Assembly: GCA_943789305.1 (NCBI GenBank)
Contig: CALSTP010000001.1
Span: forward strand, 1,257,178 to 1,321,177
Direction: 5' to 3'
Length of the DNA: 64,000 nt
From: an uncultured Flavobacteriaceae bacterium
Lineage (GTDB): Bacteria > Bacteroidota > Bacteroidia > Flavobacteriales > Flavobacteriaceae
Shown: one piece after another, positions 7,680 to 37,933 of the stretch
Numbering within the stretch: position 1 is the stretch's first letter
Layout of the letters: the number at the start of each line of letters is the position of its first letter
Position numbers and translations under genes: made by a program
The notes under the pieces: generated by a model
What the model was told of the DNA's origin: nothing
The model's database searches: none
Seen by the model: the letters and a program-made list of their open reading frames with translations, nothing else

Positions 7680-8417
7680 TTAATCGAGGTTTCTGATTTT
7701 TATATTCCTAAAAGATGTTATTCCTTCATATTGATCATCCATTGGCCCGTGGGCTTGAAGACTAATGTGTCCTTTTTCGTATTTGCCAAATTCAGACCAG
7801 GTTTTAAATTTACTCTCTTGAACCAATTGATTCCACTCCTCGCCCTTCAGGGGAAAACGTAGTACCTCCGAATTATTGAACACCAAAATACCAAGATTTT
7901 CATCATAATTTATTCGAATCAAATAGGAATTCCATTCATTCATAGGAAGAGATACCTTTTGATTCGGTGCTAGCATATCAAAAAGTGCACCAGCATTATG
8001 CTTTTGTTCCTCAGGCATGCTTTCATATACTTGTGGATCAACTATTTGAATTTCCCTTCCAGTGAGATAGGTCTGATCTAATCCTTCAATATCTCGAACC
8101 CCCCAAAGAAAACCACTATTAGCATAGGCTGCTGTTTTCCAATCAAATGAAATTTCAAAATTATAGTATTGATCATTGGTTAAAATACTACTATCAAGTC
8201 CCGATTTATTTTTTGACGCATCGTAGGTCATGACTCCATTTTTTATGGACCACCCATTATCTTCTCCCTTATTTCTATGGAAAAACCAACCTTCTATTTT
8301 GTCTGGATTGGGGTTTATAAGTACCCAATCGTTTTCTTGTTTTGTCTTTTGTTTCTTTTGTGGTTCATCACAAGCCCAAACGAAAAGAATTAATAAAACT
8401 AAAATTATATTTTTCAT
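7680..8417 (-). CDS. DUF1080 lipoprotein (3-keto-disaccharide hydrolase family)
   Basis: The 245-residue product has a signal peptide with lipobox WACDEP and one DUF1080 domain (concanavalin-like jelly roll): GWFFHRNK near the start, NFEISFDWKTAAYANSGFLWGV in the core, GREIQIVDPQV, and a final FRNIKIRNL strand. Family members hydrolyse 3-keto-glycosides made by a partner dehydrogenase, in the periplasm or on the surface. Its ATG overlaps the stop of the GMC/small-subunit remnant by four bases (ATGA), so it was evidently the third gene of a dehydrogenase operon. It should need another dehydrogenase now, most likely the intact pair at 10812-13241. Confidence 0.88.
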   Translation of the reverse strand: MKNIILVLLILFVWACDEPQKKQKTKQENDWVLINPNPDKIEGWFFHRNKGEDNGWSIKNGVMTYDASKNKSGLDSSILTNDQYYNFEISFDWKTAAYANSGFLWGVRDIEGLDQTYLTGREIQIVDPQVYESMPEEQKHNAGALFDMLAPNQKVSLPMNEWNSYLIRINYDENLGILVFNNSEVLRFPLKGEEWNQLVQESKFKTWSEFGKYEKGHISLQAHGPMDDQYEGITSFRNIKIRNLD

Positions 8418-8737
8418 AATCTGTCTTTATATATTTTGAAGATACTAAAAAAACACTGGTTTGAATAAGTTAGCAGATTCCCATCTTCATCCCATTCTGC
8501 ATAAGCTATGTCATATTCACCAAAAAATCTCTTTGTTCCAGCTACCCTACAAGGAGACTCATATGGCCATTTAAACTGAGTTTGCTGATCTGGATTCGCT
8601 GGGTCAAAGTAGGGGCCTGCCTCTATTACAGCTACTTTTAGTCCTGCATCTACCAATACTTTTGTAGCCATTCCACCACCAGCACCGGAGCCTACAATTA
8701 TGACATCATATTCTTTTATGTTTTCAATTATTTGTAT
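8414..8737 (-). pseudogene. Chimeric remnant: GMC oxidoreductase N-terminus fused to small-subunit C-terminus
   Basis: From about 8737 the frame matches residues 4-80 of the intact GMC protein at 11517-13241 (DVIIVGSGAGGGMATKVL, AVIEAGPYFDPANPDQQTQF, GEYDIAY), but the start region reads ATA instead of ATG. After GEYDIAY it switches in frame to AEWDEDGNLLT, which matches the last 11 residues of the small subunit (AEWDDQGNLLT). The stop is lost and the frame runs 14 more codons to a TGA overlapping the DUF1080 start. The join lies where both genes have G-A-(G/A)-x-A-TGGGAT, so a microhomology deletion removed most of a second dehydrogenase operon. Confidence 0.85.
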
Positions 8738-8832
8738 CTTATGAAATAAATTTTTAATAAATTAAAAATACATCAAGTGTTAATTTTTTCGGTGTTTTTC
8801 ATGATTTTATTAATTTTTTTTCTACAAAAAAA

Positions 8833-8855
8833 GTGAGAAGATAGCGACTTCTCAC
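8833..8855 (-). terminator. Hairpin terminator
   Basis: Perfect 8-bp stem GTGAGAAG/CTTCTCAC with a 7-base loop. On the minus strand it is followed by eight T, so it ends leftward transcription from the serine hydrolase gene at 9230-10489 before the remnant/DUF1080 unit. Confidence 0.8.
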
Positions 8856-9229
8856 TTTTAAATTAAAACACAACTATAAAAAATTAATCAAAACACTATC
8901 TTGAAAAAGTTTTACACACCAATTTACATTTGAATACTCTTTCTGTTTTTTTTAATTATACAAAAGCTGTGAAATTGTCTACCAAATCCACAGAAACATA
9001 AAAATTACAGCCCTTTAGTTAACGCTAGATTATATTACTACCCTTTAATGGGCTTAAAATCAGTATATAAAAAAGTAAGGAGTCAGTTATTGGAGTATTT
9101 GACCTTATCGCACCAGAGCTTGTAACAAGCAATGCAGTTCAACAATATACAGTTCAAGAATGCCACGTATGAATGATTCGTAAAACATCTTATCATCAAT
9201 TAACTTTGCGGGATAGGATTTATTAGCAT
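8856..9229. other. Gap with decayed sequence
   Basis: No intact gene. A plus-strand frame of about 33 codons (9071-9172, GVFDLIAPELVTSNAVQQ) has protein-like composition. The next bases encode a 17-residue frame (9173-9226) whose SYHQLTL start vaguely resembles the N-terminus of IS30-type transposases. Both are too short to name and are read as debris from earlier insertion or deletion events. Confidence 0.3.
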
Positions 9230-10489
9230 TTAATTAATTAATGAATGAAAAACTAACGACTTAAATTCATTGGAAATTAAATAGGAAGTATCGTCACGGG
9301 TTTGTAAATATATAATACCGATTAGTTCCTCCGTTGGATCTGCAAAAATAGATGTATTGAAATAACCAGCCCAATATAATGTTCCTACACTTCCTTTTCC
9401 CCCAAGAGCTTGATCTTTTTCAGATACTAAACCAAAAGTTAGTCCAAAAGTTGAGTCAGGAATATGACTATTCTGATTTACATAAACTAGTTCAACTGTT
9501 TTCTTACCCAATATCTGTTTGTCCTTAAACGATCCCTTGTTAAGAAACATTTGAAGGAAATTGGAATAATCTGCAGTTGTACTTGATAAACCTGCACCTC
9601 CTGATAAAAAAGTTTTTGCTCCTTTTACAGGATAATTTGTGTCATAAAAATCTCCTTGGTATTTAGTCCAAAAACCATCTTTATTTGTCTGAACAGGAAC
9701 TAATCTGTCCTGATGTGTTGTTGGTAAATAGAAATAGGTGTCATTCATTTCTAAAGGGTCAAAGATTCGTTCTTTAAAAAAAACATCTAAAGATTTTTGT
9801 GAAATAACTTCAATAAAATAGCCCAACACATCTAAGCTCTCCCCATAAGTAAACGCCTCTCCAGGTTCATGGTGTAAAGGCAGTTGCGCTAATTTCTTAA
9901 CATTTGATCCTATATTTATGGAGTCTGTTGTAAATAAATCTACAATACCTTGCTTTTTATAAATAGCCTTAAAACGAGCATCCTCATCATGAACTCCGTA
10001 GCCAATTCCTGAGGTATGAGTTAACAAATGTCTAATCGAAATTTTATTTTCAGCAGGTTTTGACAAATAAGTACTATCCGTTTCATTAAAGTCTGTTAAA
10101 ACTTTAAGGTCTTTAAATTCTGGAATATACTTTTCAATGGGATCGTCCAAATTAAATTCCCCTTCTTCCCAAAGCATCAAAACAGCTAATGATGTTACAG
10201 CCTTGGTCATAGAAGCAATTCTAAAAATATCATCTGTCGAATACATTATTTTATTCTCTACATCAGAATATCCAAAAGCTTTATTATAAATGATTTTATT
10301 GTTTCTTCGGATTAAAGCTACTGCTCCTGGGATCTGATTCTTCTCTATAGCTTTATTGAGGTAGGAATCAATTCTATCTAGACGCTCCGAAGACACGCCT
10401 TGATTTTCAGGAAGATCAAATGTTGAAGAGGTTTGACTACAGCCTGAAACTAAAAAAATTATTATTAAGACAAAAAAGAGTCTTTTCAT
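9230..10489 (-). CDS. Serine beta-lactamase-fold hydrolase lipoprotein, copy 1
   Basis: The 419-residue product has lipobox VSGC17 and a class C/esterase-family-VIII fold. The S93-M-T-K96 nucleophile/base pair is in RIASMTK; Y215 of FTYGES takes the place of the YxN motif. Family members are esterases, D-amino acid amidases or transglycosylase-like enzymes rather than true beta-lactamases. Residues of about 17-340 are nearly identical to copy 2 at 26097-27356, while the last 50-60 residues and the signal peptide differ strongly. Leftward transcription would end at the 8833 hairpin. Substrate unknown; location next to a SusCD/dehydrogenase block suggests removal of acyl groups from glycans or glycosides. 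Confidence 0.88.
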   Translation of the reverse strand: MKRLFFVLIIIFLVSGCSQTSSTFDLPENQGVSSERLDRIDSYLNKAIEKNQIPGAVALIRRNNKIIYNKAFGYSDVENKIMYSTDDIFRIASMTKAVTSLAVLMLWEEGEFNLDDPIEKYIPEFKDLKVLTDFNETDSTYLSKPAENKISIRHLLTHTSGIGYGVHDEDARFKAIYKKQGIVDLFTTDSINIGSNVKKLAQLPLHHEPGEAFTYGESLDVLGYFIEVISQKSLDVFFKERIFDPLEMNDTYFYLPTTHQDRLVPVQTNKDGFWTKYQGDFYDTNYPVKGAKTFLSGGAGLSSTTADYSNFLQMFLNKGSFKDKQILGKKTVELVYVNQNSHIPDSTFGLTFGLVSEKDQALGGKGSVGTLYWAGYFNTSIFADPTEELIGIIYLQTRDDTSYLISNEFKSLVFHSLIN

Positions 10490-10811
10490 AATAAGGAGAT
10501 GAATTATTAAATCTAAAGTACATAATTAATAAATGAGTCTAATATGAAGCTTATTATATTTTTATGCCCATGACTATTGGAGCTTGTATGAACAGTTGAC
10601 TAATCGTTTTATTCTAAAAAAAAATACATTAGTTGTATCAGGCAGATCCTTGGATTGAGCTTTAATAAATCATATATCCTTGGTATACAGGTGTTCTTAA
10701 ACACTAGTAACCTAATTAGGGATTGATGCAATTGAAATATTATCTAATAATTGGAATTGATTAAATACAGAATTACAACTTAAGATTTTTATGAAAAATG
10801 TAACCGTGTAT
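10490..10811. other. Intergenic region of 322 bases
   Basis: No gene and no exact TTTG/TANNTTTG promoter was found. ATCCTTGG occurs twice (near 10648 and 10676). No hairpin terminator after the small-subunit gene was recognised, so read-through into the serine hydrolase gene is possible. Confidence 0.4.
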
Positions 10812-11513
10812 TTATGTTAGAAGATTCCCTTGGTCATCCCATTCTGCCTGTTCATTTCTTTTGTCCTGATCAATACACCTATCAATCCAATCTTGATCAT
10901 ATGCAACGCCTACACTTTTCAATACATCTTCGGGTACTCCATCCCAAACATTAGGCATATTTCCCTGATAATCTATTTCTGAAACTCCAACTTCAGAGGT
11001 GAAATACCCAGTCATTACAAGGTTTCTTAGTAAAGAGAAAAATTGAACTTCATGCGATTGAATCTCTAAATCAGGGTTAGGAAAGGCAATTTTATCGAGG
11101 ATATCTTTTTGTTCGTTCTCTGAAATATTTACGAAACGTTTTTTAAAATTTTGGTTGCTATAACTATTCAACCACATTAAACCTCCACGTATTTTGGTTT
11201 GAAATTCAGGAACATCTTTCATCATAAACTCTATGAATTCAGGAACACCAGCTTGCTCAATGGTTCCTTCTTTTGTAGGAGGTAAAATCAAATTAGCCAA
11301 GACAACGATCAAATTCAATTCGGAATCATCAAAGAATTTTTCTTGAAGTAATTTTTCATCAAAAGCTGCTTCTTTTGGAGTCCTTCCGTATTTATAATCC
11401 CAAATATTTTTTTTAATTATAGCCTCTGAATTTGGCGCACAGCCTTCAAGCAGCAAACCACCTCCGGCTATAGATCCTACTAATAAAGACTTGATACTTT
11501 CTCTTCTATCCAT
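10812..11513 (-). CDS. Gluconate 2-dehydrogenase subunit 3-family protein (small subunit of GMC dehydrogenase)
   Basis: The 233-residue product starts MDRRESIKSLLVGSIAGGG, a twin-arginine-type signal with a lipobox-like LEGC. The body matches the small gamma subunits of FAD-dependent gluconate, glucose and glucoside-3-dehydrogenases: LNLIVVLANLILPPT, a FIEFMMKD helix, NPDLEIQSHEVQFFSLLRNLVMTGYFTS, then GYQGNMPNVWDGVP-like residues near the end. In this family the small subunit carries the Tat signal and exports the signal-less catalytic subunit by hitchhiking. It is three bases downstream of the GMC gene, so translation is coupled. Its last 11 residues are also found in the chimeric remnant at 8414-8737. 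Confidence 0.9.
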   Translation of the reverse strand: MDRRESIKSLLVGSIAGGGLLLEGCAPNSEAIIKKNIWDYKYGRTPKEAAFDEKLLQEKFFDDSELNLIVVLANLILPPTKEGTIEQAGVPEFIEFMMKDVPEFQTKIRGGLMWLNSYSNQNFKKRFVNISENEQKDILDKIAFPNPDLEIQSHEVQFFSLLRNLVMTGYFTSEVGVSEIDYQGNMPNVWDGVPEDVLKSVGVAYDQDWIDRCIDQDKRNEQAEWDDQGNLLT

Positions 11514-11516
11514 TTC

Positions 11517-13241
11517 TTAAAAATTTTGTTTTTTGAATTGATCTATTATATGATCTGCCGTTCTCCAAGATAGTGCTAGTATGGTCCAGGTTGGATTTTT
11601 ATCAGCCTGTGAAACAAAAGGACCAGCATCAACGATAAAAACATTCTCTACGTCATGTAGTCGTTCAAATTCATTTACTACTGACGTTTTTGGATCACTT
11701 CCCATGCGTGTAGTACCAACTTCATGTATAATTCTACCCGGAGCGTGAAGTCCAAAATTTTTGTCTTTTCCTGGCTTATCCCCCAAAACAATCCCACCCA
11801 TATTATGAGCAATTTCTTCAAAGGTATCGTGCATATGATTGGCTTGTTTCTTCTCAAAATCGGACCAATGGTAATTAAACCTTAAAACAGGAATACCATA
11901 CTGATCTACCTGAGTTGGATCAATTTCACAATAGTTTTCTTTTTGAGCAATCGACTCTCCTCTTCCTGACATACCCATAACTGATCCATAAAACTTTTTA
12001 ACATCTTGTCTTAGAGAATTTCCATATCCTCCAACGGGTAATCCGAGGTGTTCATTTAAAAGATTTGGGTCAAAACCAGTACCATAAGAAGGCATACCCA
12101 AACCTCCCCAAACTTCGATATGGTATCCTCTAGGAAAATCTAAATTTTTGTTATCTAACCACCAAGGAGAATAAACATGCATCCCTCCTACACCATCTTC
12201 GTTGTAGGTTTTTCTATCCATAAGTTTTGGAACAAAAACTACCCTGTCAGTACCCGTAGAATCATGAAGATACTTTCCTATCAAATCACTACTGTTACCC
12301 AATCCATTGGGGTGTTGAGTTGATTTAGAATTTAATAAAATTCGTGCACTGCTGCAGGCAGAAGCTGCTAAAACGACCACCTTAGATTTGAGTCTATACT
12401 CCAACCGATCTTTCTTGCTTATGTAAGAAACGCCCGTAGCTTTTCCATTTTCATCAACATCTACTCGATGCACCATGCTATCTACATACAAATCTATCTG
12501 TCCACCACTTTTTTGAGCTGGGAAAATTAAACAGGATCCAGAAGAAAAATCAGCATAAACAGAGCAGCTTCTATTGCATTGACCACAGTAGAAACAAACA
12601 CCTCGTTCTGGATTAATTCTTTTGGTTAAGACCGAGAGTCTAGAAGGGATTACCTTTACATTAGATTTTCTTGCACCCTTTATATAAAATAATTCGTGCA
12701 GCCTTGGCTTCGGTGGAGGAAGAAAAAATCCATCTGGATCGTTATACATGTTTTCTTTGGTACCAAAAACACCAATTAACTTATCTACTTTATCGTAATA
12801 AGGCTTTATATCTTCATAACCAATTGGCCAGTTCTCTCCTAAACCATCTTTATCTTTGCTTTTAAAGTCGTTGGGGCCAAAGCGAAGAGAAATTCGGCCC
12901 CAATGATTCGTTCTACCTCCTAACATCCTTGATCGGTACCAGTCAAACTGAGTATCTCCAATTCTATTGTAAGGTTCTCCTTCGATATCCCATCCTCCAT
13001 AAGCCATATCATATTCCCCAAAATCTCTTTGAGTACCTGCTCCTCTTCTAGGCGATTCATGAGCCCACTTAAATTGAGTTTGCTGATCTGGGTTTGCTGG
13101 ATCAAAATGAGGGCCAGCTTCAATGACAGCAACCTTTAATCCTGAGTCGGCTAAAACTTTTGTAGCCATACCTCCACCTGCACCAGAACCGACAATTATG
13201 ACATCATAATATTTAGTGTTTTCAATTATTTCCATATTCAA
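11517..13241 (-). CDS. GMC-family FAD dehydrogenase, glucoside-3-dehydrogenase-like catalytic subunit
   Basis: The 574-residue product has no signal peptide. An FAD-binding Rossmann motif lies near the start (VGSGAGGG, residues 17-24), then GGRTNHWG (108-115). A cysteine cluster C216-x2-C219-x2-C222-x3-C226 lies where bacterial FAD-glucose dehydrogenases hold a 3Fe-4S cluster. The C-terminal catalytic His is in RIIHEVGTTRMG and the Asn in DKNPTWTI. This set fits the FAD-GDH/glucoside-3-dehydrogenase branch, which oxidises sugar hydroxyls, including C3 of glycosides, in the periplasm. The usual cytochrome c partner is not in the window. A second in-frame ATG (13235) could be the real start. 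An exact promoter lies about 190 bases upstream. Substrate is inferred. Confidence 0.9.
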   Translation of the reverse strand: MNMEIIENTKYYDVIIVGSGAGGGMATKVLADSGLKVAVIEAGPHFDPANPDQQTQFKWAHESPRRGAGTQRDFGEYDMAYGGWDIEGEPYNRIGDTQFDWYRSRMLGGRTNHWGRISLRFGPNDFKSKDKDGLGENWPIGYEDIKPYYDKVDKLIGVFGTKENMYNDPDGFFLPPPKPRLHELFYIKGARKSNVKVIPSRLSVLTKRINPERGVCFYCGQCNRSCSVYADFSSGSCLIFPAQKSGGQIDLYVDSMVHRVDVDENGKATGVSYISKKDRLEYRLKSKVVVLAASACSSARILLNSKSTQHPNGLGNSSDLIGKYLHDSTGTDRVVFVPKLMDRKTYNEDGVGGMHVYSPWWLDNKNLDFPRGYHIEVWGGLGMPSYGTGFDPNLLNEHLGLPVGGYGNSLRQDVKKFYGSVMGMSGRGESIAQKENYCEIDPTQVDQYGIPVLRFNYHWSDFEKKQANHMHDTFEEIAHNMGGIVLGDKPGKDKNFGLHAPGRIIHEVGTTRMGSDPKTSVVNEFERLHDVENVFIVDAGPFVSQADKNPTWTILALSWRTADHIIDQFKKQNF

Positions 13242-13433
13242 TTAATAGTTTTTTAAAAAAATGATATCGCTTAAAAGTTCAATTGTCTTATAATAATAAA
13301 CCCCAAAAACAATAAATTCCTTTGCGTTTGAGTGATCTTTGTCTGCGACTCTAAATCAGAACACTTTTCTAATATGTCCATGTACCACAAACACTGGGTG
13401 CAATTTTATTTTGTTAATAGCGATTATATAAAA

Positions 13434-13464
13434 CAAAATTAACTGAAATAAATTTTCACACAAA
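13434..13464 (-). promoter_or_regulatory. Bacteroidota-type promoter for the GMC dehydrogenase operon
   Basis: On the minus strand: TTTG at 13464-13461, exactly 19 bases, then TAATTTTG at 13441-13434, a full match to TTTG-N19-TANNTTTG. Transcription would start near 13427, giving a leader of about 185 bases before the GMC start. The surrounding 13242-13583 region has no gene. Confidence 0.65.
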
Positions 13465-13583
13465 TCAAATTAGACGAATCCAATTATTTTATGTACTAAA
13501 AAAAAAAAGATGATGAGAAATGTGCTTTTTATAGACTTTTAACAAAAAAAATATAGCAGTGGAATAAAATAAAAGCTTAAAGG

Positions 13584-15710
13584 TCAATTATTTTTTATAA
13601 AAAAATTATTCTTGTAAATCGAATCTTCCACTTTGGCATCTAATAAAGAAAATAATTCGTCGATACTTTGAACCGGAATTTTACAGAAATTATTTTCACA
13701 TACATAGTAATAGGTCTCAACAGGATCATGCCGGTCTTTTAATAAATATAAATCTGATTTAGATGCAGAAGTTGAAATAACCGAATTGGGGATATAAAAG
13801 GGAAGTAATAGATTCATTTTATCAATTGCTAACGGTCCTGTAATAGCTATTTCATAAAAAGGAAGCGTAAAGTTATATATGGATTGTAACCAATTAGCAT
13901 GTTTTAATGGTTTCTCGAACGACATCGGCTGAATTAAAGAAGTCATTTTTTCAGCCCGTAATTTAAATTCTGGAATGCCAAAAAAGTGATTTAACTTGAA
14001 TAGAATTTCAGCCATTTTACTGTTAGCTGATGGAAATAAATTATCTTCAAGCTGAACCATTGAGCTGGTAATTAATTGAGCATTATCTTTTGAAAATTTA
14101 AAATAAACTCCATCTTCAGAAGAAAATGTATCGAGCGTAAAATCAGTTAATTCTTTAGCTAGAAAAAGTTTACTTTCGTCTGCTGTTAATTCATAATAAG
14201 CAATTAAAACATCAATTAAAAAAACATAGTCTTCTAAGAGTAAAAGCGACTCTGAAGTATTTACAGTGTGCTTAATTATTTTGTTATTGTATAAATTTTC
14301 TGAAATTAAAACATGTAACATTTGACTAGCCTGTTCTAAAAAAACCGAATCTTCAAAGGATTTGTAAGAATCTAACAAGCCCATTACAGCAATAGCATTC
14401 CATGAAAATATGATCTTTTTATCTACAACAGGAGCAGGTCTATTTTGTCTTAAACGATATAATTCATCATTTACAATTCTCTTCTTTTCTTTAAAATAAT
14501 CCGCAGACCAATCATATTTTTCAGCAAAAATAGAATCGTTAGTTTGTTTGAAGGGTATAAACCTATTACTGTCCAAAATTTCATCATTAGATATATTGTA
14601 ATAATCTGAAAACCAACTGAAATTGTTGCCTAAAGCCTTGTTCAACTCCTGTAAGGACCAAGTGTAAAAATCTCCCTCATTTATAATACCATTTATATCT
14701 TGACTATCTGCTGCAATCGAAGAGTAAAACAAAAGTGAGGGATCTTTCATTTCTCGATTAAGAAAGCTCAATATCCTATAGGCTTCTTCTTTATAGAATT
14801 CATCCTTGAAAACCTGATAAAAATTTGCATACAAACTCAACATTTGAACATTATCGTAAAGCATTTTCTCGTAGTGTGGAATTTTCCATTTTCTGTCCGT
14901 TGAATAACGATGAAATCCTCCTCCTATTTGATCATTAACCCCACCGTAAGAAATATTTTGTAAAGATTTTTTCAGGAATTCTTTAATCTCTTTTATGTCA
15001 AATTCAACAGCGTATCTCAGCAAAGACTGCAAGACAATAGGTGACATAAATTTCTCACCAACTCCAAAACCCCCATGTTTCATATCCATTTTCTGACTAA
15101 TTTCAGATACTATATTAGCTATACTCTCATTTGAAAAAGAACTTTCCTTAACAAAATCAGGAATTATAAGTGTTTTAGATATTCCTTGTTCAATTTTTTT
15201 TGCGTGATCTTTTAAATCTGAAGGGCGTGTTTTGTAAAAAGATTGAAGTTGCTTTAGGATTGATATCCATTGAGTTTTATCAACATAAGTTCCAGCCCAT
15301 ATGGGACTTCCATCTGGCAGCGTTATTATATTCATAGGCCATCCTACATTTCCTGAAATAGTTTTAAGTGCTTTCATGAAATGTGCATCTATATCAGGGC
15401 GCTCTTCACGGTCTACTTTTATACTTATGAAATTTGAATTCATCTGAATTGCAACATCATTATCTTGGAAAGTCTCTTCCTCCATAACATGACACCAATG
15501 ACAAGAAGAATAGCCTACACTAACTATAATCAATTTCTGTTCAATTTTAGCGCGTTCTAGAGCTTCTTCACCCCATGGATTCCAATGAATAGGATTGTTT
15601 GCGTGTTGTTGAAGGTATAGACTGCCTTGATCAGCTAGTTTGTTTTGAGCAAATAATAAGATTGATGAAAAAAAGAAAAAAAATGAAAAATTACATCTAA
15701 GATTAGCCAT
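13584..15710 (-). CDS. Exported DUF255 thioredoxin-domain protein (YyaL/SSP411 family)
   Basis: The 708-residue product matches the family over its whole usual length. After a probable signal peptide (FFFFSSILLFAQ), residues 36-50 carry the signature HANNPIHWNPWGEEA and a thioredoxin-like domain with C70-H-W-C73. The rest is an (alpha/alpha)6 barrel like N-acylglucosamine 2-epimerases (GGFGVGEKF, GGGFHRYSTDRKWKIPHYEKMLYDN, NAIAVMGLLDSY). Family function is not established. Most homologues are cytoplasmic, so an exported form next to SusCD and sugar dehydrogenase genes is notable. The gene follows the VCBS gene by 5 bases, so the two are one transcription unit. Confidence 0.88.
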   Translation of the reverse strand: MANLRCNFSFFFFFSSILLFAQNKLADQGSLYLQQHANNPIHWNPWGEEALERAKIEQKLIIVSVGYSSCHWCHVMEEETFQDNDVAIQMNSNFISIKVDREERPDIDAHFMKALKTISGNVGWPMNIITLPDGSPIWAGTYVDKTQWISILKQLQSFYKTRPSDLKDHAKKIEQGISKTLIIPDFVKESSFSNESIANIVSEISQKMDMKHGGFGVGEKFMSPIVLQSLLRYAVEFDIKEIKEFLKKSLQNISYGGVNDQIGGGFHRYSTDRKWKIPHYEKMLYDNVQMLSLYANFYQVFKDEFYKEEAYRILSFLNREMKDPSLLFYSSIAADSQDINGIINEGDFYTWSLQELNKALGNNFSWFSDYYNISNDEILDSNRFIPFKQTNDSIFAEKYDWSADYFKEKKRIVNDELYRLRQNRPAPVVDKKIIFSWNAIAVMGLLDSYKSFEDSVFLEQASQMLHVLISENLYNNKIIKHTVNTSESLLLLEDYVFLIDVLIAYYELTADESKLFLAKELTDFTLDTFSSEDGVYFKFSKDNAQLITSSMVQLEDNLFPSANSKMAEILFKLNHFFGIPEFKLRAEKMTSLIQPMSFEKPLKHANWLQSIYNFTLPFYEIAITGPLAIDKMNLLLPFYIPNSVISTSASKSDLYLLKDRHDPVETYYYVCENNFCKIPVQSIDELFSLLDAKVEDSIYKNNFFIKNN

Positions 15711-15715
15711 TTTTT

Positions 15716-18700
15716 CTATTTAGATTTTATAAAACTCTGTAAGACATCGTTATTATTGGCAACTAAAATAATTGTTCCATCATTAGTTTGTACTTCAATC
15801 ATTTTTTTTGCATCTCCAGGAGTAAAAAACCCACTTTGATTAACCGGAGAAAAAGTGTATTCTCCTGATTCTGAACCTAAAAATAGGGCTCCTATTCCAG
15901 CATCGTTTCGAGGGGTTTCAATTTCAGAATGATGCATATTTCCTATCAATAAAATGTCATTAATATCATCTCTATTATAATCACCAACCAAAAAGTCATT
16001 GACTGATGAAAATTGTGCTCTTACAGGGAGTTTATTTATCATAAAGTCCCCAGAACCAAGATTGGTAAGTATGGTACTCGAAAAATAAGTAGCTTGATAG
16101 TGTAATGAATTATTCAAAAGGTCTCCGTAAACGTTATTTACATCCAGACTTGCAAAAACATCATATTTCATGAATTTCTCTTTAATTTCAGGCACCTGTT
16201 GAGCAGAGCAAGAAAAACCCCTCAATGGATATTGAATACCGTAGTTGTAATAAGTAAGAACGATGTCATTTTTTCCGTTTTGATCAAAATCATTGTAATA
16301 AACTTCAAAAGGACTTTCGGGCTTTGCTTTGTACTTATAGTTATCACCTAAATTACCAACTAATAGATCCATATCTCCATCATTATCAATATCTGCCTCT
16401 TTAATTGTAAACCACCATCCTTTCAATTGATCAAGATTAGGGCTAGGTTTTGGGTAAAGAATTCCAGCCACATTTTCATAAACACGAATTGAAGACCATT
16501 CACCCACAACAACTAGGTCTTTATCGTTATCGCTGTCAATATCTGTCCAAACGGCGTCACTTACCATTCCCCAATCTTTGAAGTTTTTACTGTTAACAAT
16601 ATCTATTTCAAAAACACCTTTATTGTTTTTTAAAATATAACTTGATGTTGGTTCAGGATAATTCCAAGGTTTTAATTTAGATCCAATAAAAAGATCTAAA
16701 TCACCATCTTTGTCGTAATCTGTAGCTGTTACAACTGATCCACTTAGAAACAAATCAGGTAAGCTTTTTTTAGAAAAAACAAAATTACCTCTACCATCAT
16801 TTAGATACAAACGGTCTAAATATGCAGGATTATTGGGTTCAAATTCATTCCCCCCACTTACCACATATAAATCCATATCATTATCATTGTCTACATCTAA
16901 AAAAAGAGCATCAATGTCTTCAGTAAACTTATGTCTTTCCCAGGGTGCATTTTTAGTTTTGACAAATCCTCCTAAAATACTTTGTAGATAAAGATTTCCA
17001 GCTTTACCAAGAGCACCGCCAACAAAAAAATCTTCAAGTCCATCGCCATTGACATCAGCTTTTGCTAAAGCAGGTCCTTGTTGAGAAAATTTATGAGGTA
17101 GCAGGATTTGCTGCTTATAGTCGTCAAAAAATTGTTCTTCGTGAATGTGTTTAGGAGCAAGTTTAGACAGAGTTATATCTGTGAAAATTGTTTTTGGTTT
17201 TGGTTTTTTAACAGAAGTCTTATTAGGTTGATAATAAACCTGATGAAGTTTGTTAGCCTTTGGTTTATAAAGCATTTGTCTTTTTTCATTTGGCCAAATT
17301 ATTTCAATGCTATCAACTATTTTATTAGCTCCAAGTCCAAAATGAAGTTGATTTTCGCTTACTGAATACATACCTCTGATACTTGTAACCTCTGCATGTT
17401 GAGTATTTTTAGGTGTATATATTATACATTTTGTGCCTATTTCACTTTTAAAGTTTTCATAAGTAACTTTCAATCTAATATAATTTGCATCTCCAAGTTC
17501 AACAGTATTGTTTTTGTATAGAAAAGGAAAATCATTAACATTATTTACAACTATTTCCAAATCACCATCATTATCCAGATCAGCATATGCAGAGCCATTG
17601 GAAAATGAAGGTTGATTTAATCCCCAATTAGCTGTTGTGTTTTTAAAAGAAAAATTTCCTGAATTTTGGTACATATAATTTGAAAGCTTTATGCTTGGTA
17701 AAAAATCAAGCACTTCTTGAAGAGGAAGAATATCCCAAATATTGATTTCTCCTAAATTAGGGTTATCATTAATATAATTCGTAATAAAGTTTTTTGTGAA
17801 TTTATCTACAGATTTATCCCCATCTGTATTTCTTATGTCTCTTAAAAGACCATTGGTAATGTGAATGTCACGAAAACCATCGTTATCAAAATCAGCAATC
17901 AAATTAGACCAACTCCAGTCTGTTGCAGCTAAATTAGCGAAGTTAGAAATCTCGCTAAAGCTTTCATTGCCATTATTCAAATGAAGGGCATTAAACATAT
18001 ATTGGTAGTGCCCACCATCATTTACAACATTCCAAAACTCTTGAATGTCCATACCACTCATGTTTGATTTTAAGCGGAAGTTATCTTCGGCAACCATATC
18101 AAGAGTCATTATGTCTATATTTCCATCATTATCTATATCGGCTGAGTCAACTCCCATACTATAAAAAGATGTATGTTTCATAGATTGCTCTGTCTGGTAC
18201 CTAAAAGTACCATCACCATTATTCATATATAAAAAATCTGGTGCATCAAAGTCATTTGAAACATAAAGATCTAACCAACCGTCTTTATTGAAATCTGCTA
18301 CACTGGCGCTACTGGGAAAACCTGTTTTGACTAATCCAGCTTCTTTAGTAATAAGTTCAAAGTATTTATTGTTGATGTTTTTGTAGAGTTGCGAAGTATA
18401 TTCTGGTTTCATAATGTCCTGACCTACAAAAGGAGAATAACTTCCTCTATTAGGAGGATGATTTAAAACAAATAAATCTAAAAATCCATCTCTGTTATAA
18501 TCAAAAAAAACAGCCTGTCTTGAGCGTTGTTTATCATCAACACCCCATTTTTCAGCTTCTTCTTCAAAAGTAAAATTTCCTTTGTTTATATAGAGTTTAT
18601 TAGCCCTTCGCTCTGGTTCAAAATCGTATAGTTCTTTACTAACATAAATATCTAAAAGTCCATCTCCATTGACATCTGCAATGGAAACTCCTGAAGACCA

Positions 18701-19018: not shown

Positions 19019-19051
19019 ATGTATAAATTTAATAGTTTTTTAATGGAATCC

Positions 19052-19074: not shown

Positions 19075-19144
19075 TGTTTATCTTATCTAAAATATCAATT
19101 CATTCAATTTTACACACAAAATCTGTATCTGAATTTATTATATA

Positions 19145-27356: not shown

Positions 27357-27419
27357 AGATTTTTATTGTAATGTAAATATTGAGAAATTAGAGAGTGGAA
27401 ATTTAGCTTTCAAATGAAA

Positions 27420-28927: not shown

Positions 28928-29677
28928 ATGAATAAATACTTTCTTATTTTATTATTATCAATATCTCTTTCTTGCCAATCAGAAAAAAACGAAACTATTG
29001 AAACTAACAATAATAACATTCCTTCGGTTTTGTCAAATGACTCTGATGAAGACGGAATAAACGACGATTTAGACCAAGATAATAATACACGAGCGGGAGT
29101 TCCTGTGGACGATAATGGTGTCATGCAAAACCCAATCTATTTGGATGAAAATGGTGTTACTATTAAAGCATTTGAATGGTCAATAAATGGTGATAATGGG
29201 ATTTTAAATGAAATAATATATACCGTTGTTGACGAACAAACTTTACGAAATATGGTTTCAAGCGATGAAGATGTTTCCAGGGTATGTACAAGTAAAGTAA
29301 CCTTAATGACACAACTATTCGATTTTAAAAAAACATTTAATCAAGACATTAGCACTTGGGACACTTCTAATGTTAACGGTATGAATTTTATGTTTAATAT
29401 GGCTGAGGCATTTAATCAGAACATTAGTAGCTGGGACACTTCCAATGTACAAGACATGAATTACATGTTTAGAAATGCTTTATCCTTTAATCAAAATATA
29501 AGATTTTGGGACACATCAAATGTATCTATAATGCGAGATATGTTTAATGGGGCAGTTACTTTTGATCAAGATTTAAGTTCTTGGAATGTTTTGAAAGTAT
29601 ATGATTGTCAGTCTTTTTTTGGCAACACCCCTAGTTGGTCTCTGCAAAAACCAAACTTTACAAACTGTACCCCTTAA
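28928..29677 (+). CDS. BspA-like (DUF285) surface lipoprotein, copy 1
   Basis: The 249-residue product has lipobox LSCQSE, an acidic Asp-rich linker (SNDSDEDGINDDLDQDN, a thrombospondin-3-like calcium loop) and then at least three DUF285 repeats with the pattern FNQ(N/D)IS-x-WDTSNV-x-x-M-x-x-MF. These leucine-rich-like repeats form surface solenoids used in adhesion or protein binding. A homologous gene lies at 33201-33851 on the other strand. The cysteine pair at the end (YDCQ, FTNCTP) may cap the solenoid. Confidence 0.88.
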   Translation: MNKYFLILLLSISLSCQSEKNETIETNNNNIPSVLSNDSDEDGINDDLDQDNNTRAGVPVDDNGVMQNPIYLDENGVTIKAFEWSINGDNGILNEIIYTVVDEQTLRNMVSSDEDVSRVCTSKVTLMTQLFDFKKTFNQDISTWDTSNVNGMNFMFNMAEAFNQNISSWDTSNVQDMNYMFRNALSFNQNIRFWDTSNVSIMRDMFNGAVTFDQDLSSWNVLKVYDCQSFFGNTPSWSLQKPNFTNCTP

Positions 29678-33200: not shown

Positions 33201-33851
33201 TTATGGACAAGTACCCCAAACAGGCTTGTTTTCTTCAAGTAACGCTGAATTTGTTGAAAAATCTTGTGGCTCTGAGGAAAGGTTTGTAACGCACCAACTC
33301 GACAAGTTTTGATTAAAAGCAGTTGCTTCTGAAAATAACCCAAGCATTTTGGTTACTTTCGATGTGTCCCAATTTGATATATTTTGGTTAAACGAAGATG
33401 CACTCTTGAACATACTTCCCATATTAGTTACATTAGAAACATCCCAACCACTGATGTTTTGATTGAATAGATTTGCCTGAAAGAAAATACCATCCATATT
33501 GGTTACATTTGATACGTCCCAAAAACTAATGTCAGAGTTAAAAGAGTTATCATTGAAAAAATTTGTTAATGAAACCCCTGAACCAGACATATCCGTAACC
33601 AATGTTGTGCATAAATTATAATTTCCAGCTTCAATTTCATCTTTAATCGTTGAATTATTTACGGCTACATAAGTTTTCCCATTAATAATATCTATATCAC
33701 CCGCCTGAGCCTGTGGACATTTACAATGATTGTCTTCAAAATATATTTTCCCGGAATTTTGAATAGCGCTAGAGCTTTCATAAGTGTCGTCTCCATACCC
33801 ACCTCCACAGGAAATTAAGATTAAGATTACTAATAATAATAGTTTCTTCAT
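33201..33851 (-). CDS. BspA-like (DUF285) surface lipoprotein, copy 2
   Basis: The 216-residue product has lipobox LISCGGGYGDD. An N-terminal segment (YFEDNHCKCPQAQAGD, then INGKTYVAVNN) with paired cysteines is typical of flavobacterial BspA-like proteins. Three to four DUF285 repeats follow (FNSDISFWDVSNVTNMDGIF, FNQNISGWDVSNVTNMGSMF, FNQNISNWDTSKVTKMLGLF), closed by SSWCVTNL and WGTCP. Probably a surface adhesin-like protein. It differs from the copy at 28928 in its N-terminal segment. Confidence 0.88.
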   Translation of the reverse strand: MKKLLLLVILILISCGGGYGDDTYESSSAIQNSGKIYFEDNHCKCPQAQAGDIDIINGKTYVAVNNSTIKDEIEAGNYNLCTTLVTDMSGSGVSLTNFFNDNSFNSDISFWDVSNVTNMDGIFFQANLFNQNISGWDVSNVTNMGSMFKSASSFNQNISNWDTSKVTKMLGLFSEATAFNQNLSSWCVTNLSSEPQDFSTNSALLEENKPVWGTCP

Positions 33852-34121: not shown

Positions 34122-35213
34122 ATGGACACCAATCAACGACTACAATCTCTCGATGTCCTCAGAGGTCTAACCATTATTTTGATGATTATTGTAAACAGTC
34201 CTGGTAGCTGGTCACATGTTTATCCTCCACTATTGCATGCAGAATGGAACGGACTTACACCAACAGATCTTGTATTTCCAAGCTTCTTATTTATTGTTGG
34301 AATATCGATAGTATTATCATTAGAAAAACGTGTACTTGTTGATTCAAAACAAAAGCTTTTAAAAAAGGTTTTTGGGAGAGCCATTAAAATCTATTTAGTG
34401 GGATTACTACTCTGGATTTGGCCTGAATTTGATTTTTCCAACATTAGGTATGCTGGAGTTTTACAACGTATTTCAATTGTTTACTTGATTTGTGCTACGA
34501 TTTTTATCTACACCAAAAAAAGCAACCATATTTCACTTGGAGCCATGCTCTTAATCACGTATACCATTATTATGGTATTTGTTCCGGTTCCAGGAATTGG
34601 AAAACCTGATTTATCTGAACCCATGATGAATTGGGCAAACTACATAGACTCCCATTTACTTCCTGGTGTACTGTGGCAAAAAACTTGGGATCCAGAGGGT
34701 ATCTTAAGTACAATGGGAGCTGTTGTAACCGGTTTATTTGGAATGAGTGCTGCAGGAATTATTAAACAATACAAGGAAAGTAAATCTCTAGATCAATTGA
34801 TGATTTATGGTTTTATACTTGCATTTACCGGTTATATCACTCACTATATTTTCCCCATTAATAAAGCGCTTTGGTCGAGTTCATTTACCTTACTTACTGC
34901 GGGTATAAGTGCTTTGATACTTGGTACTTGTATATACTACATAGATCAAAAAAAAATAAAAAAAGGATTGAATATACCCTTAGCCTTTGGAGTAAATCCA
35001 ATTGTTGCTTATGCTCTTTCAAGTCTTTTGGTTTCTTTGTTTTACAGTGACTTTTTTATAGCGGTAGCACTCAACGACTTGTTTATGGAAAAATTTATTC
35101 AACTGGGTTTATCAGCAAAGTTAGTTTCTTTTTTTTATGCTCTAATTTATGGATTCATAATTTACATACCTACATATTTACTCTACAAAAAGAAATTATA
35201 TATTAAACTTTAA
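34122..35213 (+). CDS. Membrane acetyltransferase-like protein (NagX/HGSNAT family)
   Basis: The 363-residue product has about ten transmembrane helices and the family signature near the start: RLQSLDVLRGLTIILMIIVN, then LLHAEWNGLTPTDLVFPSFLFIVG, with the conserved His of LLHAEWNG. Human HGSNAT moves acetyl groups from cytoplasmic acetyl-CoA to glucosamine across the membrane through this His. Bacterial NagX-type homologues sit in amino-sugar or glycan loci. It is the first gene of a tight operon with two DUF1080 proteins and a Gfo/Idh/MocA enzyme (gaps of 9, 1 and 1 bases), so it probably acts on a sugar or sugar transport intermediate. Confidence 0.88.
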   Translation: MDTNQRLQSLDVLRGLTIILMIIVNSPGSWSHVYPPLLHAEWNGLTPTDLVFPSFLFIVGISIVLSLEKRVLVDSKQKLLKKVFGRAIKIYLVGLLLWIWPEFDFSNIRYAGVLQRISIVYLICATIFIYTKKSNHISLGAMLLITYTIIMVFVPVPGIGKPDLSEPMMNWANYIDSHLLPGVLWQKTWDPEGILSTMGAVVTGLFGMSAAGIIKQYKESKSLDQLMIYGFILAFTGYITHYIFPINKALWSSSFTLLTAGISALILGTCIYYIDQKKIKKGLNIPLAFGVNPIVAYALSSLLVSLFYSDFFIAVALNDLFMEKFIQLGLSAKLVSFFYALIYGFIIYIPTYLLYKKKLYIKL

Positions 35214-35222
35214 AAAAACTGC

Positions 35223-35813
35223 ATGAAAAAAATTTTTACACTCCTCATTCTTTTAACATCAATTGAATCTATTCAGGCACAGTTAACTTTATTTAATGGT
35301 GAAAACCTAGATGGTTGGGAAATTCACGGGACAGAAAAATGGTATGTTGAAAATGGAGAATTGATTTGTGAAAGTGGTCCCGATAAAGAGTATGGCTACT
35401 TATCTACCAAAGAACATTTTGATAATTTTGAGCTAGAACTCGAATTTAAACAGGAAGCTGACGGAAATAGTGGCGTGTTTTTTCGTTCAACTGTAGAAGG
35501 AACTAAAGTTAGTGGATGGCAAGTTGAAGTTGCTCCACCTAGTTTACATACCGGTGGTATTTATGAATCTTACGGAAGAGGTTGGCTCATAAAGCCCGAC
35601 CCCTCAAAAGACCAATACTTAAAAATGGGTGATTGGAATAAAATGAAAATCAAGGTCAATGGAGATAAAGTAATTACTTATTTAAATGGCCATGAAATGG
35701 TTCAAATAGAAGATCAAAAAATTGGACAAGGCAAAGGAGGCATTGCTCTTCAAATTCATTCTGGGGGGGGTATCAAAGTAAAATGGAGAAGTTTAAAATT
35801 AAAAAAAATATAA
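35223..35813 (+). CDS. Secreted DUF1080 protein (3-keto-glycoside hydrolase family)
   Basis: The 196-residue product has a signal peptide ending SIQAQ and one DUF1080 jelly-roll: TLFNGENLDGWEIHG at the start, FDNFELELEFKQEADGNSGVFFRS in the core, VSGWQVEVAPPS, and IHSGGGIKVKWRSLKLKKI at the end. It has no lipobox, in contrast to the next gene, so it should be soluble in the periplasm or secreted. Second gene of the 34122-37933 operon. Family members cleave 3-keto-glucosides by elimination/hydrolysis after C3 oxidation. Confidence 0.92.
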   Translation: MKKIFTLLILLTSIESIQAQLTLFNGENLDGWEIHGTEKWYVENGELICESGPDKEYGYLSTKEHFDNFELELEFKQEADGNSGVFFRSTVEGTKVSGWQVEVAPPSLHTGGIYESYGRGWLIKPDPSKDQYLKMGDWNKMKIKVNGDKVITYLNGHEMVQIEDQKIGQGKGGIALQIHSGGGIKVKWRSLKLKKI

Positions 35814-35814
35814 A

Positions 35815-36588
35815 ATGAAGTCGTTTATATTTATGAGTATATCTGTTTTTATGCTTTTGGGTTGCCAAGAGAATAAAACCAAACCCAAAAAAAAGTCCTC
35901 AGAATGGATTTACCTTTTTGACGGAAGCTCTCTTGATGGATGGAAAGCTTATAACGAGGACAGCTTACCCCCTGGATGGACTATTGTAGATAGCGTAATG
36001 ACTTTTAGCACTGAAATGATTTTGGAGCAAGATTATGACTACAGAGGAAGTAGGGATATCGTTTATGGTGGTCAAGAATTTGACAATTTTGAACTGTATG
36101 TTGAATGGAAAATTCCTCCGGGTGGGAATAGTGGAATTTTTTATCACATTACAGAAGGTTATAACGGTCTCCCAGAAGTAGCTCCCGAATATCAATTAAT
36201 CGATGATGAAAACTACACCGATTTCCATGATATTACAGAATACAACAAAAGTATAGGCATAACCAAAAACCCTCAAGATTTACAACCCCTTCAATCAACT
36301 GGAGCCGACTACGCTATGTACGTTCCAGATCCCGCAAAGAAAAATCTTAATCCTGCAGGTCAATGGAACAGCAGCAAAATTATATTTACCCCTGAAATAG
36401 TAGAACACTGGCTCAATGGGGAATTACTTCTAACTTTTGTTCCCTGGTCAGAAGAGTGGAATGCAAAAAAAAGTAATGGAAAATGGAAAATTGCTGAAGA
36501 TTATGGCATCTACAAAAAAGGATTTATAGGTTTTCAAGATCACGGAAGCCCTTTGTGGTTTAGAAATATTAAAATAAAAGAGTTGTAA
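35815..36588 (+). CDS. DUF1080 lipoprotein (3-keto-glycoside hydrolase family)
   Basis: The 257-residue product has lipobox LLGCQEN and one DUF1080 domain: WIYLFDGSSLDGWKAYN, FDNFELYVEWKIPPGGNSGIFYH, EYQLIDDENYTD, WNSSKIIFTPEIVEHWLNGE, and a closing GFQDHGSPLWFRNIKIKEL. It starts 1 base after the preceding DUF1080 stop, so translation is coupled. Two paralogues in one operon with a Gfo/Idh/MocA enzyme suggest distinct substrates or successive steps. The last strand is nearly the same as that of the 7680 protein (FRNIKI). Confidence 0.92.
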   Translation: MKSFIFMSISVFMLLGCQENKTKPKKKSSEWIYLFDGSSLDGWKAYNEDSLPPGWTIVDSVMTFSTEMILEQDYDYRGSRDIVYGGQEFDNFELYVEWKIPPGGNSGIFYHITEGYNGLPEVAPEYQLIDDENYTDFHDITEYNKSIGITKNPQDLQPLQSTGADYAMYVPDPAKKNLNPAGQWNSSKIIFTPEIVEHWLNGELLLTFVPWSEEWNAKKSNGKWKIAEDYGIYKKGFIGFQDHGSPLWFRNIKIKEL

Positions 36589-36589
36589 A

Positions 36590-37933
36590 ATGAAAAAAAG
36601 AGAATTTATCAAAACTGCTTCATTAGCTATTGGAGCTTCAGTCCTTCCCCTATCGACATGGTCTTGTGGAAAATCTGATGAGATATTACGTACAGCACAT
36701 ATCGGTATTGCAAATATGGGACTTGAAGATTTAAAGGCAATTTCATCCCATGCAAACGTTGTTGTAACTGCTCTGTGTGATGTCGATAACAATGCTTTGA
36801 AAGCTGCCAGTGAAATGTTTCCTCAAGCTCAAATCTTTAGCGACTATCGAATAATGTTTGATCAAATTTCAGATCAAATTGATGCAGTAGTAGTATCTAC
36901 TCCAGACCACACTCATGCTCCAGCTTCCTTATTGGCAATGGAAAAAAATAAAGCTGTTTATTGTCAAAAACCCCTGACTCATTACGTTTCCGAATCCAGA
37001 GAAATGCGAAAAGTTGCCAATGAAAAAAATCTTGTTACTCAAATGGGTATTCAAGTGCACTCATTCTATGATTATAAATTAGCTACTTATCTCATTCAAG
37101 GAGGTATCATTGAAAAAGTCAGCAAAGTAATTGCATGGTCAAACAAAAATTGGGGATATGATGGCCCTGCACCAGAAGGTTCTGATCCCATTCCAGAGAA
37201 TCTTGACTGGAATCTTTGGTTGGGTACTTCTCAAGAACGTGAATATAAAGATGGTTACTACCATCCTGGAAATTGGAGAAAGTTAGTAGATTATGGCTGT
37301 GCAACCTTGGGAGATATGGGAGTACATATTTTTGATACCCCTTACAACGCATTAGAACTTGATGTCCCCAATACAATCACTAATCAGTGTCGCCCATTTA
37401 ATGGTTATGCATATCCAGAGCGAAATATCGTTCGTTACACCTTTGATGGAACCGCCTACACAACAGATCGTTTTGAATGGTTGTGGTATGATGGCGTAGA
37501 TGGACCAGAAATTAAAGACGAATTGTTATTGCCTGATGGAGAGTCTCTTCCTGAACAAGGTGCAATGTTTATTGGAGAAAATGGCAAACGTTTGCTTTTA
37601 CCTCATTTTATGGAACTCCCAAAACTTATCGAAGGGGAGTCCTATGGAAATTATAAAATTGAAGATTATGACCCTGAGGGAACTCTTGGAGAACCGATTA
37701 GAGATTATGCCAAAGAATCTCCAAAACATTACCATGAATTTGTGGATAGTTGTTTAGGGAAATCGGATTGCTCTGCTCCATTTGAATATGCATCCAAACT
37801 AACAGAAACAATTCTTTTAGGAGTTATTGCAGGACGTTTTCCAAACCAAACCCTTCATTACAATAAAGAAACTTCAGAATTTGAAGAACAAGATGCAAAT
37901 ATATTTTTGAAAGGAAATTACCGTACTTTCTAA
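36590..37933 (+). CDS. Exported Gfo/Idh/MocA-family oxidoreductase, copy 1
   Basis: The 447-residue product starts MKKREFIKTASLAIGASVLP, a Tat-like signal with KR in place of RR. The NAD(P)-binding fold follows (HIGIANMGLEDL, VTALCDVDNNAL, AVVVSTPDHTHA), then the catalytic Lys in CQKPLTH and the LGDMGVHIFDTP segment. Exported members of this family keep a tightly bound NAD(H) and can oxidise and re-reduce sugars, including C3 of glucosides. It lies 1 base after the second DUF1080 gene, which strongly suggests that it supplies or consumes 3-keto-sugars. A hairpin terminator follows. Confidence 0.92.
   Translation: MKKREFIKTASLAIGASVLPLSTWSCGKSDEILRTAHIGIANMGLEDLKAISSHANVVVTALCDVDNNALKAASEMFPQAQIFSDYRIMFDQISDQIDAVVVSTPDHTHAPASLLAMEKNKAVYCQKPLTHYVSESREMRKVANEKNLVTQMGIQVHSFYDYKLATYLIQGGIIEKVSKVIAWSNKNWGYDGPAPEGSDPIPENLDWNLWLGTSQEREYKDGYYHPGNWRKLVDYGCATLGDMGVHIFDTPYNALELDVPNTITNQCRPFNGYAYPERNIVRYTFDGTAYTTDRFEWLWYDGVDGPEIKDELLLPDGESLPEQGAMFIGENGKRLLLPHFMELPKLIEGESYGNYKIEDYDPEGTLGEPIRDYAKESPKHYHEFVDSCLGKSDCSAPFEYASKLTETILLGVIAGRFPNQTLHYNKETSEFEEQDANIFLKGNYRTF

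Follow-up and report, generated by a model that had tools for sequence, protein, structure and literature searches.

The window studied here is a stretch of 64,000 nucleotides (positions 1257178-1321177 of contig CALSTP010000001.1) from the genome of an uncultured Flavobacteriaceae bacterium (2.08 Mb, about 90% complete). The original prediction had described its glycan-related genes as a single locus. They occur instead in separate runs on two strands and make up several modules. Module 1 (9.2-28.1 kb), an island for SusCD-mediated uptake, carries a GMC dehydrogenase and its small subunit, a putative lipoprotein exported by twin-arginine translocation (Tat). Module 2 (34.1-37.9 kb) is a NagX-DUF1080-DUF1080-Gfo operon, and a further Gfo-TIM cluster is found at 54-57 kb; gaps of 6 kb and 16 kb separate the modules. 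We read this set, with about even confidence, as a glycan system of dispersed parts, with an oxidative 3-keto branch and N-acetylhexosamine (HexNAc) as its probable substrate. Besides ordinary hydrolysis, cleavage of glycans after oxidation of a sugar ring has recently been described as another route.

In such a system, SusCD would import an oligosaccharide and the esterases would strip its ester groups. The GMC dehydrogenase would oxidize a ring hydroxyl, most likely that at C3, and transfer the two electrons via its Fe-S cluster to an acceptor not encoded in the window. DUF1080 proteins would split the 3-keto-glycoside, while the exported Gfo/Idh/MocA and TIM proteins would interconvert and reduce the keto products. 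Module 2, the Gfo-TIM cluster and the DUF1080 gene that follows module 1 (DUF1080a) would form the periplasmic 3-keto-glycoside branch, and the glycan would additionally be served by an ordinary glycoside hydrolase (GH) of family GH20 encoded elsewhere in the genome. The 3-keto reading is plausible for the DUF1080 and Gfo proteins and fairly likely for the GMC dehydrogenase. A glycan containing HexNAc is the most likely substrate, as judged by association only. We infer the oxidation at C3, the order of the steps, the amino-sugar substrate and the joint action of the modules.

The GMC dehydrogenase and its putative 3-keto neighbors

The GMC dehydrogenase (11517-13241, minus strand; PF05199, PF00732) belongs to a distinct clade with four cysteines. 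C216, C219, C222 and C226, already pointed out in the original prediction, are present in 80 of 81 alignment rows, the remaining row having a gap there. The CX5CX3C spacing of C216, C222 and C226 is that of C212, C218 and C222 of BcGDH, which the available text on that enzyme gives as 3Fe-4S ligands, an extra C213 being bonded to the small subunit (PMC6719666). For the four-cysteine clade, a 4Fe-4S rather than a 3Fe-4S cluster is conceivable. The small subunit (10812-11513, minus strand; Gluconate_2-dh3, PF13618, 1.3e-29) has R3, R4 and C25 in all 81 rows and, as anticipated, carries a Tat motif (R3/R4); it is predicted to be a Tat-exported lipoprotein. It matched no PDB small subunit by sequence. 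A general role of C219 in an inter-subunit disulfide like that of BcGDH is unlikely, since the lipid-anchor C25 is the only invariant cysteine of the small subunit, whose C213 is found in 62/81 rows. The AlphaFold model of the GMC protein has a mean predicted local distance difference test (pLDDT) score of 66, with values below 50 at residues 214-230. Searched with Foldseek, this model gave fructose dehydrogenase (FDH; 1.5e-28) and flavin adenine dinucleotide (FAD)-dependent glucose dehydrogenase (FAD-GDH; 1.1e-27) as best matches.

The genome, which has five DUF1080 genes and two small-subunit genes in all, holds a second GMC locus, L008, with genes for a cytochrome c, a small subunit, a GMC protein, a TIM protein, a transporter-like protein, a Gfo, a TIM protein and a DUF1080 protein (transporter and Gfo by eye). 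Since this content resembles the surroundings of LacABC as given in the available text of Price et al. (2022, PMC9007349), L008-like GMCs are called LacA-type here. All six LacA-type GMCs examined have three cysteines. Among the matches listed, close relatives of the window GMC (68-97%) are present in 51 of 199 family genomes and are followed by a gap down to 37%. In a contig search yielding at least 591 relatives, the top 80 were retained; all of these 80 have 67% identity or more and come from Flavobacteriaceae, Saprospiraceae, Roseivirga and others. GMC and small-subunit genes are adjacent in 77 of these 80 named loci. Five further GMCs are encoded in the 80 loci, four with the three-cysteine pattern and one with neither pattern. 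Searches of open-access text, none aimed at the clade by name, found no paper describing it as such.

The window's most direct evidence that GMC-small-subunit pairs and DUF1080 formed one unit is a fossil. Next to the intact DUF1080a gene (7680-8417, minus strand; PF06439 1.1e-27; 3-keto-disaccharide hydrolase family) lies a remnant (8468-8737, minus strand) in which the N-terminal part of a GMC gene is fused by deletion to the end of a small-subunit gene. From 8737 to 8468, it is 79% identical to GMC residues 3-88 and ends with the last 11 small-subunit residues (35 bp, 85.7%, E 4e-7). Its start codon is lost and DUF1080a starts 50 bp downstream. Hence, a second pair once directly preceded DUF1080a and collapsed by internal deletion. 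This fossil, together with the occurrence of DUF1080 in the same-strand GMC operon of 10 of the 80 relatives, supports the 3-keto idea.

The gene orders in these relatives are varied. DUF1080 directly precedes GMC in L109, L110, L113, L117, L118 and L119, with a Gfo2 relative (57-59%) ahead of DUF1080 in five of them, and it lies five genes ahead of GMC in L147. A close relative of Gfo2 stands at position -2 from GMC in six of the 80 loci, including L168. In L145, L146 and L156, a TIM-transporter-Gfo-TIM run (transporter by eye) is followed by GMC-small-DUF1080, and these three loci hold a four-cysteine GMC and a LacA-type GMC within one 3-keto cluster. Operons of another kind encode GMC, the small subunit, an exported TIM protein and a sulfatase, some of them with a SASA esterase or DsbH. 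Finally, a glycosylasparaginase relative occurs in 8/80 loci, seven of which share the order glycosylasparaginase-GMC-glycerol genes (glycerol genes by eye); the one glycosylasparaginase checked against the PDB matched at 1e-98.

Module 2 is a tight plus-strand run (34122-37933, gaps of 9, 1 and 1 bp) made up of a NagX-like (HGSNAT-like) membrane acyltransferase (34122-35213; PF07786 1.3e-12), DUF1080b (35223-35813; PF06439 7.5e-39), DUF1080c (35815-36588; PF06439 5.8e-44; PDB 3u1x 9e-46 and 8tda 1.5e-29) and an exported Gfo/Idh/MocA protein, Gfo (36590-37933; PF01408 1e-14; PDB 8tdf 8.1e-39). The second exported Gfo/Idh/MocA protein and exported TIM barrel placed at 53961-57116 by the original prediction are indeed there; this cluster encodes Gfo2, which is BT_2158-like (55665-57116, minus strand; PDB 8tdf 5.1e-92), a short-chain dehydrogenase and an AP_endonuc_2 TIM barrel (53961-54830, minus strand; PF01261 3.7e-22; PDB 3ngf 1.9e-16). 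The nearest solved relatives of both Gfo proteins are 8tdf/8tdh, and their best NCBIfam model is the BT_2158 "glycoside 3-dehydrogenase" (NF058561), reached at 442 bits by Gfo2 and 267 bits by Gfo against a cut-off of 750. GH109 was discarded as the best label for these proteins, its structure 6t2b being a weak match for Gfo2 (3.6e-7 vs. 5.1e-92 for 8tdf) and absent from the 22 matches listed for Gfo.

Relatives of the exported Gfo (E 1e-100) are present in 53/199 genomes. DUF1080 is directly upstream in 16 of the 20 loci fetched and within two genes in 18. The run of L211 comprises ASPIC, GH20 and NagB (divergent, on the other strand), DUF1080b, DUF1080c, Gfo and GDSL. That of L213 comprises a weak GH20 match (26%), NagX (54%), a 238-aa protein, DUF1080b, DUF1080c, a 745-aa protein and Gfo. 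In L214, Gfo2 and the TIM barrel are joined to DUF1080c-Gfo.

Amino-sugar genes in related islands

The link to amino sugars comes from relatives of the window. In the sister species G099 (same genus), the island is found at 83-89% DNA identity (window 13588-28245, 10811-13512 and 9225-10535) with three additional genes. Two of them, NagB/PIG-L and an SGNH esterase, are on the other strand and separate DsbH from GMC; the third, a GH20, separates the small subunit from the beta-lactamase-family gene. In the sister island, two frames (L044:2336-5639) make up what is a single FG-GAP/ASPIC gene in the window. In another genus, contig G020:C55 (L230) carries NagX (55%; 169 bits against a cut-off of 480), a membrane protein of 554 aa without family assignment whose sequence looks like that of a sodium/solute symporter, NagB/PIG-L, GMC (80%), the small subunit (59%), GH20 (53% to that of L095) and DsbH (35%), with a convergent DUF1080b (68%). 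This locus unites most of the module kinds scattered in the window with amino-sugar catabolism.

SusD relatives are found in 29/199 genomes at E 1e-50. Twenty stretches were fetched and 19 have a SusD relative (L207 has none). Among these 19 regions, GH20 occurs in four (L192, L196, L199, L204), NagX-like genes in five, NagB in two and glycosylasparaginase in one, with any of these in 10. Checks of one representative each confirmed a fucosidase, a sialidase-like BNR protein, GH92, GH3, MurQ and NamZ, and several SusCD relatives are accompanied by GH20, GH3, GH29 or GH92. The SusCD relatives of L201, L203, L204 and L205 belong to gene runs that further include MurQ, NamZ and GH3 as well as NagX-like and transporter-like genes (family check for L201 only); such a run is likely a locus for the utilization of peptidoglycan sugars. 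In a rough test treating genes as randomly placed, with uncorrected P values, GH20 lies within 10 kb of the exported Gfo in 3/35 cases (P 0.011) and of SusD in 2/14 (P 0.023); at a 20-kb reach, the counts are 3 (P 0.06) and 4 (P 0.001).

None of the 50 window proteins scanned reached a Pfam cut-off for a GH (three overlapping frames and the shorter ones were left out; the window has 53 frames of 100 aa or more), and likewise no glycoside hydrolase or lyase above cut-off accompanies SusCD there. The only GH-named match, Glyco_hydro_88 on the DsbH protein, is sub-threshold. The originally predicted lack of a recognized GH therefore holds for these proteins; it is local to the window, the sister island having a GH20. 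GH20, NagB or similar genes, missing from the window, are present in its own genome at locus L095, which has the genome's only GH20 and NagB/PIG-L beside a TIM barrel, an ASPIC protein and SusCD (SusC and SusD by eye). The prediction had named beforehand, as an observation that would speak against it, ordinary GHs acting on the SusCD ligand; these were found in relatives and not in the window. With GH20 and NagB in the sister island, and GH20, GH3, GH29 and GH92 near SusCD relatives, the proposal that the gene set replaces classical hydrolases is unsupported.

As for the electron acceptor, no CXXCH cytochrome c is encoded in the window, as first reported, and no multihaem subunit; among 56 frames of at least 60 aa, only the DsbH protein has CXXCH (CHWCH). 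The genome has four Cytochrom_C matches, all outside the window, one of them beside the LacA-type locus. Within six genes of GMC in the 80 loci, 13 of 792 proteins contain CXXCH, five being DsbH-like.

The uptake island and other genes

The genes named in the original prediction are present at the coordinates given and with the families assigned to them, according to Pfam. Missing from its list were the GMC-small remnant and the DsbH, FG-GAP/ASPIC and NagX-like membrane proteins. The minus-strand run follows the order GDSL, beta-lactamase-family, Kelch-LytTR, SusC, SusD, FG-GAP/ASPIC, DsbH/DUF255, GMC, small subunit, beta-lactamase-family and DUF1080a, with intergenic gaps of 63, 36, 88, 6, 186, 5, 342, 3, 322 and 812 bp. 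The SusC TonB-dependent transporter (20702-23797, minus strand; PF07715, PF13715) and the SusD-like_2 lipoprotein (19205-20695, minus strand; PF12771 2.8e-78) are encoded by adjacent genes, as in a polysaccharide utilization locus. The neighboring regulator (23886-26060, minus strand; PF04397 4.4e-17 and Kelch models) has a one-component membrane build, with an N-terminal domain, a Kelch propeller, a single hydrophobic stretch near residues 580-613 and a LytTR DNA-binding domain.

Esterase-like hydrolases, of which two had been counted, are indeed present and number three: a GDSL/SGNH hydrolase (27420-28142, minus strand; PF13472 1.5e-23) and two beta-lactamase-family serine hydrolase lipoproteins (copy 1, 9230-10489, PF00144 3.3e-64; copy 2, 26097-27356, PF00144 4.1e-64; both minus strand). 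These two copies share 94.9% DNA identity (9294-10490 vs. 26161-27357), although the resemblance of either protein to the one encoded at the corresponding place in the sister species is only about 85%; the two island ends have thus probably undergone recent gene conversion. The island also encodes an FG-GAP/ASPIC-UnbV protein (15716-19018, minus strand; PF13517, PF07593) and an exported thioredoxin-DsbH/DUF255 protein (13584-15710, minus strand; PF03190 1.3e-58; PDB 7tkv 3.5e-78). DsbH-type proteins are found near the four-cysteine GMC in 10/43 and 6/80 loci vs. 0/25 LacA-type loci, and also beside some SusCD-ASPIC sets; the exported DsbH/DUF255 protein is possibly an unrecognized enzyme of the pathway. 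A candidate promoter pattern, TTTG-N18-23-TANNTTTG, matched seven times against 5.5 expected, and its copy 5' of GMC (13434-13464) carries no weight.

Between modules 1 and 2, DUF285 repeat proteins (28928-29677 and 33201-33851) flank a second FG-GAP/ASPIC protein. Farther on, a 141-aa protein (44070-44495) with no Pfam match looks by eye like the region that binds B12 in the mutase encoded at 38065-40212 and seems devoid of the cobalamin motif of that mutase. Two consecutive large frames (46672-49473 and 50038-53154), the second with cadherin-like/Ig repeats and a TTG start, are possibly a single interrupted adhesin.

Known systems and alternative explanations

Parts of the window resemble known systems. 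The BT2156-BT2159 type of 3-keto pathway, an alternative route of broad-specificity glycan breakdown, reportedly comprises the exported BT_2158 Gfo, DUF1080 and a TIM barrel, and the window has proteins of all three kinds. It differs from that pathway by Gfo proteins scoring 442 and 267 of the required 750 bits, by tandem DUF1080 genes with a NagX-like gene and by an FAD dehydrogenase as a possible first step. With the FAD-dependent glucose and fructose dehydrogenases (6a2u, 7w2j), the window shares the GMC fold and the CX5CX3C Fe-S ligands, and presumably also the pairing with a small subunit of the Gluconate_2-dh3 kind. In contrast, its C219 is placed elsewhere than C213 of BcGDH, its small subunit is a putative lipoprotein and it lacks a multihaem subunit. 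As far as the available text of Price et al. (2022, PMC9007349) goes, the window has in common with the Caulobacter lactose/glycoside 3-dehydrogenase LacABC, with DUF1080, a GMC protein and its small subunit, together with Gfo and TIM partners and an exported DUF1080. However, the window GMC falls outside the L008-like clade, is part of a SusCD island with no cytochrome c gene nearby and carries an additional, fourth cysteine that is invariant, and the LacABC-kind locus L008 is separate in the same genome. Finally, loci of the family for amino sugars, glycoprotein glycans or peptidoglycan sugars contain related SusCD (L196, L199, L201) and FG-GAP proteins (L095, L196); they have NagX-like genes (L201) and GH20 (L095, L196, L199), whereas the window island has no such hydrolases.

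Several results weigh against a HexNAc system in which the GMC dehydrogenase feeds DUF1080. A phylogeny, which had been suggested as a check, showed the four-cysteine GMCs as a clade of their own and gave no LacA-type grouping: the two are separate with supports of 99/96 and 100/100 in a tree of 58 rows (24 of the clade, 32 LacA-type and two database rows, aligned stretches only) that were assigned by the nearer match to the window GMC or L008, Caulobacter LacA being outside the row set. C3 specificity is thus not given by grouping. The proposed 3-keto degradation stands in so far as DUF1080, exported Gfo and GMC-small genes meet in relatives, and DUF1080 and GMC-small genes in the fossil, and falls short in that the GMC is outside the LacA-type clade. 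In a control of 25 LacA-type loci (20 from the 33-37% GMC matches listed, plus L008 and L080-L083), DUF1080 occurs in 15, an L008-type Gfo in 17 and amino-sugar markers in none. Near the four-cysteine GMC, DUF1080 occurs in only 6/43 and 11/80 loci, which weakens the simple claim that this GMC works with DUF1080 and goes against simply equating the clade with LacA. The suggested co-occurrence check did find DUF1080 (E 1e-3) in 51/51 genomes with the clade vs. 81/148 without, among the matches listed. However, the figures are 106/107 vs. 26/92 for genomes with and without any GMC (E 1e-60), and 49/51 clade genomes have more than one GMC match, so that the co-occurrence is confounded and cannot be credited to the clade alone.

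The amino-sugar side has its own difficulties. Markers (GH20, NagB, NagX, glycosylasparaginase) are near the four-cysteine GMC in a minority of loci, 5/43 and 13/80 vs. 0/25 in the control (P 0.15 and 0.035), a generous test since L230 of the 43 was fetched for GH20 and the sets of 43 and 80 are not independent; seven of the 13 positive loci share a single gene order. As the markers were chosen after such loci had been seen, this comparison is suggestive only. The claim that GMC is next to GH20 was abandoned, GH20 being within 10 kb of 2/46 anchors in the 45 genomes searched (one of the two in the sister) against 0.54 expected (P 0.10, by the same rough test). The window's NagX-like protein scores 170 bits against a curated cut-off of 480 (NF046061), the NagX relative of L201 has no Pfam match, and the 79.5 kb of G099 that were compared contain nothing equivalent to DUF1080a, the NagX run or Gfo2.

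These results leave room for other explanations. The GMC might be an aldose 1-dehydrogenase like FAD-GDH, oxidizing released glucose or N-acetylglucosamine (GlcNAc) for respiration, with DUF1080 and Gfo serving the LacA-type GMC elsewhere. Its nearest solved structures, by sequence and fold, are FAD-GDH and fructose dehydrogenase, and the mean identity of the clade to FAD-GDH (29.8%) nearly equals that to LacA-type GMCs (32.0%; LacA-type to FAD-GDH, 26.3%). Most fetched four-cysteine loci have no DUF1080 (37/43, 69/80), and in the sister genome the DUF1080c-Gfo pair is directly behind a LacA-type GMC-small pair (L224), an arrangement favoring this explanation. We nevertheless consider it doubtful in view of the GMC-small-DUF1080a fossil and the ten operons with DUF1080. 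Alternatively, the genes could take the place of classical hydrolases on a neutral glycoside (such as a glucoside or C-glycoside), similarly to LacABC with DUF1080. This would agree with the absence of GHs above cut-off among the 50 proteins, with the presence of DUF1080 and BT_2158-like Gfo and with the TIM-transporter-Gfo-TIM-DUF1080 clusters of L145, L146 and L156, which contain the four-cysteine GMC. It is unlikely, given the GH20 and NagB of the sister island, the ordinary GHs with several SusCD relatives, the LacA-type locus L008 with its own cytochrome c already present in the genome and the position of the window GMC outside the LacA-type clade. Last, the uptake island, the 3-keto operon and the Gfo2 cluster might be chance neighbors with unrelated substrates, as their opposite strands, the 6-kb and 16-kb gaps and their separation in the sister genome would allow. 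This is very improbable, the modules being joined in other ways in G020 (L230), G137 (L214), G139 (L046) and G004 (L055).

Beyond the dispersed HexNAc system with a 3-keto branch that we favor, a bolder and rather improbable proposal can be made. The four-cysteine clade might be a new respiratory dehydrogenase with a 4Fe-4S relay that, in the periplasm, oxidizes C3 of N-acetylhexosaminides (chitobiose, GlcNAc-Asn, glycan cores). The 3-keto-HexNAc route opened in this way would also involve NagX, DUF1080 and the exported Gfo and DsbH proteins, would run beside GH20 and would feed NagB. If oxidative 3-keto chemistry does act on amino-sugar glycans in Bacteroidota, its known uses would be widened, and part of the turnover of N-acetylhexosamine from chitin, glycoproteins and cell walls could escape hydrolase-based surveys. 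Since the clade is common (51/199 genomes, among the matches listed) and strongly conserved, the assay of a single complex could annotate many genomes.

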